Shown piece by piece: positions 19,613-25,346 of a stretch of DNA of 64,000 nucleotides. The notes beneath the pieces are model-generated. The model ran no database searches. It saw nothing but the letters and a program-made list of their open reading frames with translations, and was not told the DNA's origin. The position numbers and the translations under genes are program-made. The DNA lies in contig JAJEBN010000113.1 of assembly GCA_022822525.1 (NCBI GenBank), positions 1 through 64,000 on the forward strand. The letters run 5' to 3'. How positions within the stretch are numbered: the first letter of the stretch is position 1; each line of letters opens with the position of its first letter. The DNA is from Acidimicrobiia bacterium (GTDB taxonomy: Bacteria > Actinomycetota > Acidimicrobiia > Acidimicrobiales > Poriferisodalaceae).

Positions 19613-20113
19613 CTAGGCCTCTGCGGCTGCTTTCATCGCAGCGAGCGTGGCGCGGATGCCGGCGCGGGCGTTGCCGGCCCGGTAGTCGAGTTCCTTCTGG
19701 CCGTTCTCGATCATGCGGGGGGACAGTTGGCGCAGCGTCCAGGTCTCGGTCAAGGTGGTGCCGGAGCCGTTGGGCGCCAGCTGGTAGCGCCACAGGACGA
19801 TGTTGTATTCGAGGCCGCCGGTCACGAAGGCGAAGTCCTCGTTCTCGACGCGGCGGATGATCTCGACCGGCGCCTTCCACTCCTCGCCGTCGAGCCGGTT
19901 GATGCCGACGAACATGTCGCCGACCTGCCCGGTGCCCGGCACCCCGTCGGGGCCCTTGCGCCAGTACCCGCCGGTGTTCTCGTTGCTCCACTCGCCGTAG
20001 CGATCCAGCGCCGTCACCATCTCCCACACCACCTTCGGCGGCGCGTCGATGTCGATCGATTCGCTATGGGACATCACCGGGTCGTCAACATGCCCGGGAA
20101 GCTGCTCACTCAT
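19613..20113 (-). CDS. SRPBCC-family (polyketide cyclase/START-like) protein
   Basis: This 166-residue protein has the helix-grip fold signature: IDIDAPPKVVWEMVTALDRY near the start, GEWS-NENTGG, then beta strands and a long C-terminal helix (MIENGQKELDYRAGNARAGI). The family binds hydrophobic ligands in a central cavity, and members act as cyclases, hydroxylase partners or ligand carriers. It is last in a three-gene - strand run after the globin and SCO6745-family genes, separated by 94 nt. The ligand is unknown. Confidence 0.75.
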   Translation of the reverse strand: MSEQLPGHVDDPVMSHSESIDIDAPPKVVWEMVTALDRYGEWSNENTGGYWRKGPDGVPGTGQVGDMFVGINRLDGEEWKAPVEIIRRVENEDFAFVTGGLEYNIVLWRYQLAPNGSGTTLTETWTLRQLSPRMIENGQKELDYRAGNARAGIRATLAAMKAAAEA

Positions 20114-20207
20114 GGCCCGCAGCCTTGCAGATGCCGTCACCCGCCCGCGGTGTCCAATTGGCGAGCGTCGCCGCGGCGCCGACGGCCACGACCTGGCTGT
20201 CACCTGA

Positions 20208-21059
20208 TCAGTCGTCGTTGGCGGGGTACAGCTCTCGCCAGTCGATCTGGTCGTCCTTTGGCAGCTTGGCATTGATCGGCGCCATGTCTGCCAGCAGGGC
20301 ATCGGCAGCGTCGTCGCCGATCGCCCCCCAGTGGACGCCATCGAGGCGGTCGGTCATGGCCTCGACCTCGTCGCGCCCGGCGGAGCCTGCAGCGGTGGCC
20401 CGCCCCGCGGCATCCACCCAGCCGCGGCTGCGAAGGCGCTCGTACGCGGCCTCGGCCTCGGTCTCGGTCCAGCCGGCCTCTTCTTGAATCCACTCGCGGG
20501 GCGCTTCATCGACGGCGACCTGGGAGACCACCGATTCGCAGCCGTCCAAACCGGCCGCTGCAAGGGCGATCAGGTGGCATCCGCTGCGGTATTCCCGCAG
20601 CAGCGTGCAGCCGTGCCAGAGCGCCAAGTGCGGCTCGTCGGGCCAGTCCAGCGACGCCCAGCCTGCGAACAGCACCCGGCCGACAGGGTCGGCGGCATCG
20701 CAGGCAGCCCGCACTGTCTCGGCGCTGCGGCGAATCGAATCGCTGCCGACCAACTCGCCCAGTTCGCGTCTCAAAGCGGAGTCCATGCCCTCGTAGCGCG
20801 CGGCGAGCACCTGTGCCGGCGTCGAGTACGTCCAGGCATCCGGGATCGCCCGCCGAACCCGTGCAGGTGCGTAGTAGAAGAACAGCGACTCCACGACGCT
20901 CGCTGGCACAGGCCCCAACGGCGCCGACCGGGTCGCGAAGTAGTTCATCCAGAAGCCGCGCAATCCAGCGGCTGCTCCCGCCTCGCGCACTTCAGGCGCC
21001 CAGTAGCAGAGCTGGTGATACCGCTCCGCGCACTCCCACATCCGCCGCGCTCGTCGCAT
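20208..21059 (-). CDS. SCO6745-family protein
   Basis: The 283-residue all-helical protein matches the actinobacterial SCO6745 family through its N-terminus (YHQLCYWAPEVREAG, GLRGFWMNYFATR-APLGPV, VVESLFFYYAP). Its C-terminal part resembles a winged-helix segment (REWIQEEAGWTETEAEAAYERL). The biochemical role of the family is not established. GGGGAGAC upstream of the ATG supports the start. It follows the truncated globin gene by 18 nt and is probably co-transcribed with it. Confidence 0.75.
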   Translation of the reverse strand: MRRARRMWECAERYHQLCYWAPEVREAGAAAGLRGFWMNYFATRSAPLGPVPASVVESLFFYYAPARVRRAIPDAWTYSTPAQVLAARYEGMDSALRRELGELVGSDSIRRSAETVRAACDAADPVGRVLFAGWASLDWPDEPHLALWHGCTLLREYRSGCHLIALAAAGLDGCESVVSQVAVDEAPREWIQEEAGWTETEAEAAYERLRSRGWVDAAGRATAAGSAGRDEVEAMTDRLDGVHWGAIGDDAADALLADMAPINAKLPKDDQIDWRELYPANDD

Positions 21060-21077
21060 GACTGTCTCCCCGTCCTG

Positions 21078-21581
21078 CTAGCTGGGTTGGTTGATGAGGT
21101 GGGTGGCGGCGTTGTCGAAGTGGGCGAACATGGCCTGAGCGATGTCGGAGTCGAGCGGCGAGTCGTCGGGCAGGCGTGCCGCTTCGAGCGCAGCAACCAT
21201 GTGGCGCATCCAGGCGTTGCGTTCGGCCGGCCCGATGGCGAAGGGCATGTGCCGCATGCGCAGGCGCGGGTGGCCGCGCTCTGCGCTGTAGTCGGCGGGC
21301 CCGCCCCAGTACTGGGCAAGAAAACCTGCCAGACGGTGCCGGGAGGGTCCCATGTCGGCGGGATACATCGGCCGCAGCAGTTCGTCCTGCTCGACTGCGT
21401 CGTAGAAGCGATTCACCAGATCGTCGAAGAACTGCTGCCCACCGACTGCAGCGAACACCGTCGGGGGCTGCTCGACAGCCTCGGCCAGGCTGCCGCCCAG
21501 CGTCAGGCCACCTGCGCCCCAAGCGGCTTCTTCGCGTGGGGCGGAAGGGTCGCTCGCGGGGGTGGCATCGTCCTCGGTCAC
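21078..21581 (-). CDS. glbO: Group II truncated hemoglobin (trHbO type)
   Basis: This 167-residue protein has a short disordered N-terminus and then a 2-on-2 globin. It has FFDDLVNRFYDAVEQDELLRP (helix A/B), QYWGGPADYS (CD-E region) and HPRLRMRHMPFAIG with the proximal His, followed by WMRHM with a group-II-type Trp on helix G. The family binds O2 and is linked to oxygen delivery and reactive nitrogen or peroxide chemistry. The GTG at 21581 is chosen because TAGCCT lies seven nt upstream. It is first in a three-gene run and divergent from the selenoprotein gene across 205 nt. Confidence 0.85.
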   Translation of the reverse strand: MTEDDATPASDPSAPREEAAWGAGGLTLGGSLAEAVEQPPTVFAAVGGQQFFDDLVNRFYDAVEQDELLRPMYPADMGPSRHRLAGFLAQYWGGPADYSAERGHPRLRMRHMPFAIGPAERNAWMRHMVAALEAARLPDDSPLDSDIAQAMFAHFDNAATHLINQPS

Positions 21582-21588
21582 GGCGCTC

Positions 21589-21594
21589 AGGCTA
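21589..21594 (-). promoter_or_regulatory. Putative -10 box (TAGCCT) of the truncated globin gene
   Basis: TAGCCT on the minus strand is seven nt before the GTG at 21581, with no ribosome binding site between. This suggests a leaderless transcript. Confidence 0.5.
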
Positions 21595-21786
21595 AGAGGC
21601 GAAGCCGTGACGGAAGCGGCCTGCGAGCGGCAGCGAACATGAGCGGGCAGCACGGGTGAAGCCGTGGGCCAAGTGGCACCGGGCATCCCGCAGGGTGAGG
21701 CGCCTACAGTCTTGGAAAGCTGGCGCGCTCAGTCGGCGCTCAGCGGTGGGCCTGATGCAGGCCCGGAGGCAGGTACGGGAGGCACG

Positions 21787-22737
21787 ATGGCGTTGACAGA
21801 ACGGCCCCAGCGGACGACCAACGGGCGCAAGCCGGACGGTCGGCGCGCACACCGGTCGTACCTGAGCTACATCGACAAGTCGCGCGAGTACTACGGGGCA
21901 CACGGCTACCCGCAGCCGTACCAGTGGGCGTACAACCAAGAGGTGGCGTTCGCGCCGTTGGCCACGCCGCTCTCGGAGAGCACCGTCGGCCTCGTCACCA
22001 CCTCGTTCTTCGAGAAGGGCCGCGAGCCTGCCGGAGTGCCGGTGGCCCGGCCCAAGCAGCCCTACGCCGCTCGCTGCGACGATGCCCTCGCAGGCCTCTA
22101 CAACAGCGATCTCTTCTGGGACAAGGACAACACCCACACCGACGACCTCGACACCTACCTGCCCATCAACCGGCTGCGCGAGTTCGAGGCCGAGGGGCGC
22201 ATCGGTGCACTCTCGGAGCGCTTCTACGGCATCCCCACCGACTACAGCCATCGCCGCACCCAGCGCAACGACTCGCCCCGTATCGAGGAGTGGATGCGTG
22301 AAGACGGCGTCGACGTTGCCTTCCTGGTACCGCTCTGACCGGTCTGCCACCAGACGATCGGTCTGATCGCTCGACACCTGGAAGAGGCCGGCATTCCCAC
22401 CGTGGTGGCCGGCAGCGCTCGTGACATCGTCGAGGAATGCGGCGTCGCACGGTTTGTGTTCACCGATTTCCCCCTGGGGAACCCGACCGGCAAGCCCGGC
22501 GATGCGGCCATGCAGCGCGCCATCGTGGCGACGGCGCTGGACCTGCTCGAGCATGCCTGGATGCCGCGCACCACGGTGCAGACGCCCTATGTGTGGGATG
22601 CCGACGACAACGACGGCTGGCGTGACCACTTCATGCGTGTCGACGACTCCAACCGGGCCGCGCTGGCCGCGGCCGGCGAGGCACGACGGCGCGATCAAGC
22701 CGCCGCCAAGGCCGACGGCCGCGCCCGCACCAGCTGA
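21787..22737 (+). CDS. Selenoprotein B (GrdB/PrdB-like) family protein with in-frame UGA = Sec184
   Basis: Two open segments in the same frame, 21787-22335 and 22339-22737, are separated only by TGA at 22336-22338. Read through, they give 316 residues with the redox motif U184-P-V-C-H-Q-T, the UxxCxxT arrangement of the glycine/sarcosine/betaine/D-proline reductase selenoprotein B family. Both sides are conserved-looking: DKDNTHTDDLDTYLPINRLR before, and GLIARHLEEAGIPTVVAGSA then FTDFPLGNPTGKPGD after. GGGAGG ten nt before the ATG fixes the start. It lacks the other glycine reductase subunits and sits in an aerobic-looking genome, so a thiol-redox or reductive-lyase role is more likely than Stickland metabolism. 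A candidate SECIS follows the UGA. A nonsense mutation is the alternative, but the intact downstream half argues against it. Confidence 0.85.
22339..22371 (+). promoter_or_regulatory. Candidate bacterial SECIS element for the GrdB-like selenoprotein
   Basis: Directly after the UGA, CAGAC (22351-22355) and GTCTG (22361-22365) form a five-pair stem with loop GATCG, and the weaker outer pairs extend it. The apical loop begins with G 18 nt after the UGA, within the range described for SelB-dependent bacterial SECIS elements. A competing helix (GTCTG 22342-22346 with CAGAC) could also form. No folding program was run. Confidence 0.5.
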
Positions 22738-22809
22738 GCAACCCGGGCATCGGTGGCAGGGCCAGCCGGCGATGCCGCGCGTGGCCCCAGAGCAAATGAA
22801 AGGCCGCAC

Positions 22810-23793
22810 ATGACTGATGACCAGCGCAAGCCGCTGTTCGACCCTGCCGACGCTGACGCGCCCGATTTCGTGCCGTCTGAGCCGGCCGGCGCCGATGTCT
22901 ATTCGCATCCCTCCGAGCACGGCGAGCGCATCACCGACACGCTCGTCCCCGATCTCATGATCGAAGCGTCTGGAGGCGTGACGGTCGCCGCCGACGTCTA
23001 CGGCGACGACGGCCCGCTTGTGCTGCTGCAGCACGGCGGCGGCCAGACTCGCCACGCCTGGAAGGGAGCGGGCCAAGCCCTCGCCGACGGCGGCTACCGG
23101 GCCGTGTGCCTCGACGCCCGGGGCCACGGCGACTCGGACTGGGCGCCCGACGGCGACTACACGACTGAGGCATCGGTGGCCGACCTCGTGGCGGTAGTGG
23201 AGCACTTCGGGGAACGGCCGGTGCTGGTCGGCGCCTCGATGGGCGGGGGCACCTCGCTGACCGCGGTCGGCGAGGGTGCGGTAGACGCCCTGGCGCTCGT
23301 GCTCGTCGACACGGCCCCGCAGATCGAAGCAGCCGGCGTGCGCAAGATCCGGGACTTCATGGCTCAGGGCGCCGACGGGTTTGCATCGCTCGAAGAGGTC
23401 GCCGAGGCGATTGCCAACTACCAGCCGCATCGCAAGCGGCCGCGCAACCTGGACGGTCTCGCCAAGAATGTCCGCCTCTGGCCCGACGGCCGCTACCGCT
23501 GGCATTGGGATCCCGCCTTCATGCACCGCCCGCGCAGCTTCGCCGAGCGCATCCCGCGCCAGCAGGCCGCCGCCGAGAACCTGACGCTGCCGACGCTGCT
23601 GGTGCGGGGCGGTCTCAGCGATGTGCTGTCAGAGGAAGGCGCTCAGTCGTTCCTCGACACCGTGCCGCATGCGCACTATGCGAATGTCGGCGGCGCGGCC
23701 CACATGGTTGCGGGCGACCGCAACGACATCTTCGTCGAGGCGACGCTCAGGTTCCTGGCCGAATTCGTGCCTGGCGCGCACGCGCGAGCCTGA
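22810..23793 (+). CDS. Alpha/beta-hydrolase fold protein
   Basis: This 327-residue hydrolase has the oxyanion segment [13 protein letters not shown], the nucleophile elbow [10 protein letters not shown] (Ser in G-x-S-x-G-type context), a late acidic residue in [13 protein letters not shown], and the catalytic His in [10 protein letters not shown]. The first 50 residues are an acidic extension without a signal peptide. It could be an esterase, a dehalogenase-like enzyme or a peroxidase-like enzyme. It lies 72 nt downstream of the selenoprotein gene on the same strand, so co-expression is likely. GAAAGG about nine nt upstream supports the ATG. Confidence 0.85.
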
Positions 23794-23810
23794 TCGCGGC
23801 CTTCTTGCCG

Positions 23811-23842
23811 TACCCTTGCGGCCCTTGGCCGGACAGGCCGAG
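23811..23842 (+). promoter_or_regulatory. Putative -10 box and 5'-UTR hairpin of the cold-shock gene
   Basis: TACCCT at 23811-23816 could act as a -10 box. CTTGGCC (23824-23830) and GGCCGAG (23836-23842) then form a seven-pair hairpin with loop GGACA just upstream of the ribosome binding region of the csp gene. This would be a short structured leader. Confidence 0.35.
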
Positions 23843-23858
23843 CTTCGAGAGGCACAAC

Positions 23859-24056
23859 ATGCGCGGAACAGTCAAGTTCTTCAACAACGAGAAGGGCTTC
23901 GGCTTTATCTCCCGTGAAGGCGCCGATGACGTCTTTGCCCACATCTCCAATGTGGTCGGTGAAGGCGACCGGACGTTGGAGGCAGGCCAGGAGGTCGAGT
24001 TCGACATCGGCCCGGGCCGCAAGGGCGACGAAGCTCGCAACGTCAAGCCCGTTTGA
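23859..24056 (+). CDS. cspA: Cold-shock domain protein
   Basis: This 65-residue single cold-shock domain has RNP1 KGFGFI and RNP2 VFAHI, and starts [16 protein letters not shown]. It binds single-stranded nucleic acid and melts RNA secondary structure. GAGAGG upstream of the ATG is the likely ribosome binding site. A DEAD-box RNA helicase follows 108 nt later on the same strand, a pairing that fits RNA unfolding at low temperature. A stable hairpin lies between the two. Confidence 0.93.
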
Positions 24057-24064
24057 ACTCAATC

Positions 24065-24086
24065 GCCGCTGAGCACTGCCAGCGGC
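24065..24086 (+). terminator. Stem-loop after the cold-shock gene
   Basis: GCCGCTG (24065-24071) and CAGCGGC (24080-24086) make a perfect seven-pair stem with an eight-nt loop nine nt after the csp stop. There is no U-tract, so it may be a weak or factor-assisted terminator, or an attenuator or stability element before the helicase. Confidence 0.4.
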
Positions 24087-24164
24087 ACTGACCGGCCGCA
24101 TCAACCCTTGAACGGGCCGGCGGTGCGGCCGTCGATTGCCGACCCGATGTCGGCGAGGAGTCAC

Positions 24165-25346
24165 ATGCCCCCCACCTTCGCCCAGCTGGGCGCCCCCGAC
24201 TTCATCGTCAGCGCGCTCGCGCAGCGAGGCATCAGTGAGCCGTTCGCCATCCAAGCGGCCACTGTGGCTGACGCCTTGGCCGGACTCGATGTCTGCGGAC
24301 GCGCGCCCACCGGCTCGGGCAAGACGCTGGCTTTCGGCATTCCGCTCGTCGCCAGCGTCGGCAAGGCCCAGCCGCGCAAGCCCCGAGCGCTGGTGCTCGC
24401 GCCGACCCGCGAACTCGCCGACCAGATCATGACCGAGCTGCGCACTTTCGCAGGCAAGCGGCGCATCGGCGTCGCCTATGGCGGTGTGGGTTACGGCGCT
24501 CAGATCGGGTCGCTGCGCCGCGGGGTCGACATCCTCGTGGCGTGTCCGGGTCGCCTCGAGGACTTGATCTCCCAGGGCCAGGCTGACCTGTCCGCGGTCG
24601 ACAAGGTCGTCATTGACGAAGCCGATCGCATGGCCGATATGGGATTCATCCCCGCCGTGCGGCGGCTGCTCGACCAAACTGCGGCACGGCGCCAGACCAT
24701 GCTGTTCTCCGCCACGCTCGACGGAGATGTGGCAACACTCACCCGTGACTACCAGCGCGATCCCGTGCGTCACGAAGTCGACGACGAGACGCCCGATGTC
24801 AGGGCTGCCGAGCACGTGTTCTGGAGCGTCGCCAAGACTGACCGCACCGACATCTGCGCCGAGGCGATCGACGCCGCTGGGTTGACAGTCGTGTTCTGCC
24901 GGACCCGGCATGGCTGTGACCGCGTTGCCAAGCAGTTGGATCGCCGAGGGATCCGCGCGGCGGCGCTGCATGGCGGACGCAGCCAGCCCCAGCGCACCAA
25001 GGCACTCGCCGCGTTCGCAGCCGGCAGAGTTCAAGCGCTGGTCGCGACAGACGTTGCTGCGCGCGGCATCCATGTCGAAGGTGTGAGTGCCGTCGTCCAC
25101 TATGACCTCGCGGCGGACCACAAGACCTACCTTCACCGGTCGGGCCGCACGGCGCGGGCGGGTGAGGGCGGGGTAGTGGTCTCGCTCATCCAGCCCGAGC
25201 AGGCGAGAGAGCTCAAATCCATGCAGTGCAAGATGGGACTGGTGCAGCCCATTACCGACGTGGATGTGGACGTGATCCGGGAAGCCCCACGATCACGGAC
25301 GCGGTATCGCACGCTCAAGCGTCTGGATCGTCCTGGGGCTCACTGA
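24165..25346 (+). CDS. DEAD-box ATP-dependent RNA helicase
   Basis: This 393-residue protein has the full set of motifs: Q-motif (FAIQAATV), I APTGSGKT, Ia APTRELADQ, Ib CPGRLEDL, II DEAD, III SAT, IV VVFCRTRHG, V ATDVAARGIHVEG and VI HRSGRTARAG. There is almost no C-terminal extension, so it resembles compact RhlE-like helicases. GGAG nine nt upstream of the ATG at 24165 sets the start; an ATG 19 codons earlier has no such site. Its last 32 nt overlap the convergent DUF3467 gene. Confidence 0.9.
   Translation: MPPTFAQLGAPDFIVSALAQRGISEPFAIQAATVADALAGLDVCGRAPTGSGKTLAFGIPLVASVGKAQPRKPRALVLAPTRELADQIMTELRTFAGKRRIGVAYGGVGYGAQIGSLRRGVDILVACPGRLEDLISQGQADLSAVDKVVIDEADRMADMGFIPAVRRLLDQTAARRQTMLFSATLDGDVATLTRDYQRDPVRHEVDDETPDVRAAEHVFWSVAKTDRTDICAEAIDAAGLTVVFCRTRHGCDRVAKQLDRRGIRAAALHGGRSQPQRTKALAAFAAGRVQALVATDVAARGIHVEGVSAVVHYDLAADHKTYLHRSGRTARAGEGGVVVSLIQPEQARELKSMQCKMGLVQPITDVDVDVIREAPRSRTRYRTLKRLDRPGAH

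Follow-up and report, generated by a model that had tools for sequence, protein, structure and literature searches.

The window analyzed here is a 64,000-nucleotide stretch of a contig from an Acidimicrobiia bacterium. A reading frame on its forward strand, 21787–22737, contains a single in-frame TGA (22336–22338), which falls within the peptide LVPL-U-PVCHQT and is followed by 132 sense codons and a TGA stop at 22735–22737. A sequence-only reading of the window had located this TGA and its motif correctly and proposed that the gene encodes a selenoprotein followed by an alpha/beta hydrolase, which is indeed encoded downstream. The features of the locus are as follows.

21777–21782, forward strand: probable ribosome-binding site GGGAGG, recognized by eye
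21787–22737, forward strand: PrdB-like selenoprotein gene, 316 amino acids, Sec at position 184
22336–22338, forward strand: UGA codon read as Sec, the first residue of UxxCxxT
22350–22366, forward strand: SECIS-like hairpin (stem 22350–22355 with 22361–22366, loop 22356–22360 GATCG), from covariation in 42 distinct sequences
22810–23793, forward strand: alpha/beta hydrolase partner, 327 amino acids, predicted triad S143, D271, H298

The selenoprotein gene starts with the ATG at 21787, with GGGAGG upstream, and this start codon is aligned in all 10 window-clade orthologues. Sec184 and Cys187 form the UxxC pair of the protein. Homologues were detected in 53 of the 198 sampled genomes of the class, counting the window's own genome (G000); the orthologue set consists of 24 sequences with 69–96% identity from named Acidimicrobiia assemblies. 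TGA occupies the Sec position in 54 of the 55 loci read (L001–L055; the window has the handle L002, and L001 is a second paralogue from the same genome), the sole exception, L025, having Ala in this position. Across the 198 class genomes, 58 of the 60 matches contain at least one in-frame TGA; among the 30 class matches without a locus of their own, base-by-base reading covered five, L001, L084, L085, L091, and L092; the others include a stop-free match in G194.

Comparison with Cys-containing homologues, which the sequence-only reading had suggested, yielded two proteins encoded on alphaproteobacterial plasmids (43–44% identity) that have Cys in the Sec position and read straight through in an uninterrupted frame. 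The residues immediately after the TGA (PVCHQT) are conserved among the homologues. This conservation, together with the continuity of the Cys homologues, runs counter to homologues stopping at the same site without downstream homology and rules out a broken gene or a separate downstream gene. The pN/pS ratio after the TGA is 0.075–0.087 against four window-clade orthologues and 0.17–0.21 against two marine ones, the respective values before the TGA being 0–0.07 and 0.20–0.23; selection at the protein level persists beyond the TGA. Several homologues depart from the common pattern. In L025 (genome G158, where SelB is not over the cut-off), the motif reads APVAPMC, with Ala for Sec, an open frame, and the second Cys retained; L087 reads UPIU, with TGA at the Sec and second-Cys positions alike; and one of the Cys homologues, from Roseomonas (L064:9965–12350), is encoded on a large plasmid next to SelO.

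The putative SECIS-like hairpin lies approximately 14–30 nt past the first base of the UGA, and 5 of its 6 stem pairs are formed in the window. When 9 pairs were scored over the 42 distinct sequences, 91.5% of the pair cells were paired, compared to 20–48% for slid versions of the hairpin; two-sided changes were counted in 50 cells, whereas the shuffles averaged 15.2 and none of the 500 reached 50, and the covariation score was 0.449 versus 0.148 for the shuffled alignments. Folding energy gives a weak signal (relative to synonymous-codon shuffles, the mean z of 53 sequences is −0.95, one Sec locus containing N bases having been left out), so the argument for the hairpin is carried by the covariation count instead. 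The window's 45-mer attains its lowest energy in a different fold, and an Rfam scan of window positions 20000–24500 produced no SECIS match, only a chance hit to neisseria_FSE below the cut-off. The loop is GATCG in the window clade (10 loci) and xGTxx in the other 44 of the 54 loci, the window clade lacking that loop G. As is characteristic of bacterial selenoproteins, a SECIS-like hairpin is located just downstream of the UGA.

The sequence-only reading had named absence of the Sec machinery in the host as grounds for rejecting its claim. The machinery is present: in G000, which is 98% complete, SelA, SelB, SelD, and tRNA-Sec are all over the cut-offs, with SelA and SelB encoded side by side and the tRNA anticodon being TCA (tRNA-Sec(UCA)); the SelB match spans only model positions 2–339 of 581. 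SelB is over the cut-off in 47 of the 53 class genomes with a homologue versus 49 of the 145 without one, a comparison in which kinship and completeness act as confounders; the six homologue-carrying genomes without SelB over the cut-off are G058, G060, G158, G174, G188, and G194. The SelD gene of G000 (L062, G000:C73:37177–38130) itself contains an in-frame TGA, and SelD is probably a selenoprotein as well. Genome-wide recoding of TGA was ruled out because TGA serves as an ordinary stop, ending the window frame itself, and the Sec machinery is complete. That the UGA is a real stop in a truncated or broken gene, as in the mechanical list of open reading frames, where the frame ends at 22338, is extremely improbable given the retention of TGA in nearly all loci, the downstream selection, the covarying hairpin, the Cys homologues, and the full machinery. 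The selenoprotein claim is therefore upheld, and we consider it almost certain, from comparison of sequences, that the gene encodes a selenoprotein.

With regard to family, the protein is best described as PrdB-like rather than as a proven PrdB. The TIGR04483 (PrdB) profile matches residues 54–270 with 90.2 bits and is the best family match, far below the equivalog cut-off of 300. The Sec and Cys of UxxC are in the same place in PrdB, as in the Terrisporobacter protein (AGUGTCHRS, compared to PLUPVCHQT in the window), whereas the window protein has a longer N-terminus. The earlier assignment to a GrdB/PrdB-like family holds for its PrdB half but not for GrdB: the GrdB-type models score approximately 38–42 bits, all below the cut-offs (TIGR01918, 42.3 versus 65.45), and PF07355, the profile that had been proposed for the check, scores 18.5 bits, short of its gathering threshold of 22. 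Only in the C-terminal third, where the Sec motif lies, does the protein align with GrdB, GrdF, and GrdH of the glycine, sarcosine, and betaine reductases (model positions 280–422 of 431), most of the first 280 positions being missing, so that this is not a full-length selenoprotein B (~430 aa). A tree of 71 rows places the window sequence and its orthologues together with the sister L003 and both Cys proteins in a single group (100/99), clostridial PrdB being distant, on a long branch. No solved homologue was found by sequence (the best hit, a designed protein, had an E of 0.0019, and none of its stretches passed by itself), and a model of the selenoprotein of modest quality (pLDDT 61) had no Foldseek match to a solved structure at E of 0.001. 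The matches to this model were Rossmann-like or periplasmic-binding-like only (best Z of 9.3), and its fold was set aside. G000 also encodes a second, longer Sec-containing paralogue (L101, G000:C63:20727–21317) with a C-terminal extension, an MFS-like gene downstream, and a PF07355 score just over the cut-off (23.2 bits versus 22).

The hydrolase gene starts at 22810, 72 nt past the selenoprotein stop, and its product matches Pfam Abhydrolase_1 and Abhydrolase_6 with 70.9 and 63.7 bits (cut-offs 25.8 and 26.3). S143, D271, and H298, assigned as the triad by their positions in motifs, are invariant in 25 of 25 hydrolases. As for the recurrent partner that the sequence-only reading had suggested looking for, the hydrolase gene directly follows the selenoprotein gene in all 24 close orthologous loci, at a distance of 1–6 nt in the 14 marine loci and 57–118 nt in the 10 window-clade loci. 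Of the 19 open reading frames in the marine locus L047, two of which are pieces of the selenoprotein gene, only the selenoprotein and the hydrolase recur throughout the 10 window-clade loci, and another two, ~7.5 kb away, are found in 3 of the 10. The hydrolase is the only adjacent gene common to both orthologue clades and is inherited together with the selenoprotein gene, and the two are probably functionally paired.

This pairing does not extend to the entire family. The sister L003 (57% identity) has no adjacent hydrolase, its gene overlapping the end of a ligA-like gene (named by eye); neither do the two Cys homologues, and in other actinobacterial homologues the neighbours, also named by eye, are unrelated. 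A family-wide rule was rejected, given that hydrolases adjoin the gene in 7 of the 30 loci of the class that lie beyond the focal clade (L001, L003–L031), in about 3 lineages. These hydrolases are of the Abhydrolase_3 type in L005, L011, and L024 and FrsA-like in L006, L012, L013, and L014, as determined by Pfam for L005, L006, L012, and L024 and by blastp cluster for the other three; counted by lineage, the class-wide trend is weak (P of 0.01–0.09, assuming 3400 genes and 27–60 hydrolases). The structural model of the window hydrolase (pLDDT 65) is an alpha/beta hydrolase with the esterases Rv0045c (3p2m, 6wym, 6wyn), among the best matches by both sequence and fold, and PP2A methylesterase PME-1 (3c5v), the best Foldseek match, among the nearest. 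The Ser-Asp-His residues are conserved in these comparisons, but identity is only about 20–25%, and many other esterases score about equally, so the match does not reveal the substrate. Upstream, on the reverse strand (20208–21686), are two open reading frames that, judged by eye, resemble a member of the SCO6745 family and a truncated haemoglobin and which are conserved in most window-clade loci and were not found in the marine clade.

The sequence-only reading had noted the lack of a reductase partner nearby and an aerobic context, and both observations hold beyond the window. No glycine or proline reductase partner is located near the window gene, and PF09338, the pyruvoyl subunit of the PrdA/GrdE family, was detected in none of the 26 gene-carrying genomes, mostly drafts in which a highly diverged partner might escape detection, the positive-control plasmid being detected. 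Haem-copper oxidase (COX1) genes, that is, genes for oxygen respiration, are present in all 26. The protein therefore very likely belongs to a PrdB-like type that lacks the pyruvoyl subunit PrdA/GrdE and, in further distinction from PrdB, occurs in aerobic-type hosts next to a hydrolase. The description of the enzyme as stand-alone is accurate with respect to the pyruvoyl partner but not with respect to the hydrolase, which seems to be a partner in its own right, even if the 57% sister lacks it.

Glycine and D-proline reductases break C–N bonds via Se–C intermediates; in the superfamily, as described in the part of the source available, the substrate is tied to a carbonyl group and the selenolate breaks the C–N bond, after which the Se–C bond is cleaved and a selenenylsulfide forms (PMC10298544). 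Given that PrdA is missing and UxxC is intact, the window protein would target a carbon whose activation is built into the substrate. We give roughly even chances to the possibility that it is a PrdA-less selenol/thiol reductase that cleaves a carbon–heteroatom bond and that the hydrolase makes or uses the same compound; for reductive carbon–heteroatom cleavage by the window protein, drawn from analogy, our expectation is somewhat short of even. In such a reaction, the selenolate of Sec184 would attack an electrophilic carbon of a substrate that itself supplies the activating group; a carbon adjacent to a carbonyl and bearing N, O, S, or a halide would be an example. Sec184 would displace the leaving group, Cys187 would then free the reduced product, and the resulting selenenylsulfide would be recycled by a cell thiol. 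The hydrolase could convert an ester, thioester, or lactone into the substrate or else consume the product.

The closest parallel is FarB, a GrdB-family selenoprotein of the fluoroacetate reductase of Cloacibacillus porcorum, for which, in the portion of the report accessible, C–F cleavage is proposed, that is, carbon–halogen attack without pyruvoyl activation, its partner FarE lacking the pyruvoyl-forming cysteines (PMC10838667). FarB differs in coming from an anaerobe and in having the GrdE-like FarE, a transporter, and a radical SAM gene alongside (PMC10838667); it is likened to the window protein here by description rather than by sequence comparison. We found no precedent for a PrdB-like protein acting wholly alone, FarB retaining its GrdE-like partner. 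An enzyme of the proposed kind could be the first for Se-dependent reductive carbon–heteroatom cleavage in aerobic metabolism, with no pyruvoyl partner and a pathway made up of just the enzyme and its hydrolase, a claim that we advance only tentatively.

The main rival to this explanation is a general thiol-redox role, whereby Sec and Cys together would serve in detoxification by reducing disulfides, peroxides, or electrophiles generally, the hydrolase being no more than a housekeeping gene nearby. UxxC resembles thioredoxin-type redox pairs, COX1 is found throughout the gene-carrying genomes, and many marine selenoproteins are of such a kind, according to the part of the survey available (PMC2398784); however, the sequence is PrdB-like, not thioredoxin-like, and the strict pairing with one hydrolase fits poorly with a chance neighbour, so we consider this role a serious but less likely option. 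Appreciably less probable is that both genes function in acyl-CoA or quinone-related metabolism, with the selenoprotein reducing an intermediate there. This is suggested by one homologue subclade in which the gene adjoins MenB (573 bits, cut-off 378) or is separated by one gene from isochorismate synthase (275 versus 224.75), and by genes near the marine-clade loci that match the AcetylCoA_hyd_C, Zn-dependent ADH, and APH models, but the MenB cases are confined to a single genus (g73) and those with isochorismate synthase to a single family (f13), and no men gene was identified beside the window gene, where the flanks had no profile scan for men genes. Least likely among the functional alternatives is that the protein is a genuine subunit of D-proline (or glycine) reductase whose activating counterpart is diverged or distant: no family matches better than TIGR04483, but the score is under a third of the equivalog cut-off, and PF09338 is missing from all 26 aerobic-type genomes despite the positive control.

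The cleavage reading bears on a family that is already familiar. Catalogues of selenoproteins in marine metagenomes have included ones named 'PrdB' from 2005 onward, with 42 Sec-containing representatives in the Sargasso Sea (PMC1088965) and 235 in GOS (PMC2398784), and 'proline reductase' made up 6.4% of the selenoprotein genes in a later marine survey, so that the find is less unexpected than it first looked. These proteins share with ours the marine origin, the UxxC, the Sec, and the name, and the marine orthologues identified here, for example, that of MedAcidi-G3, may belong to this set; the likening is by description, not sequence by sequence, and the accessible portions of the two papers do not discuss a missing PrdA or a hydrolase. 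In the open-access literature searched by title and start of abstract, with subscription journals outside the scope, we found no description of a PrdB-like/hydrolase pair or of a missing PrdA in aerobic actinobacteria. New, then, is the PrdA-less, aerobic, hydrolase-paired subfamily, not the family as such. In the surveys, as far as their available parts go, 'proline reductase PrdB' ranks with the commonest marine selenoproteins; the name would be wrong for any others that resemble the window gene in lacking PrdA and in having an aerobic host. If the cleavage reading is true and the abundant marine 'PrdB' are alike, a new reaction other than D-proline reduction would be widespread in the sea. 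The tight pair of selenoprotein and hydrolase offers a small, concrete handle toward the substrate.

Two further neighbourhoods are worth recording. In genus g73 (L103:7652–9501, also L102 and L104), the PrdB-like selenoprotein gene abuts or overlaps the MenB gene, the profile having been run on L103, and in the sister family f13 (L105 and L106), a MerR-type regulator is encoded divergently from the homologue, and isochorismate synthase lies just beyond the regulator (profile on L105 only). A link of these neighbourhoods to menaquinone metabolism is possible.
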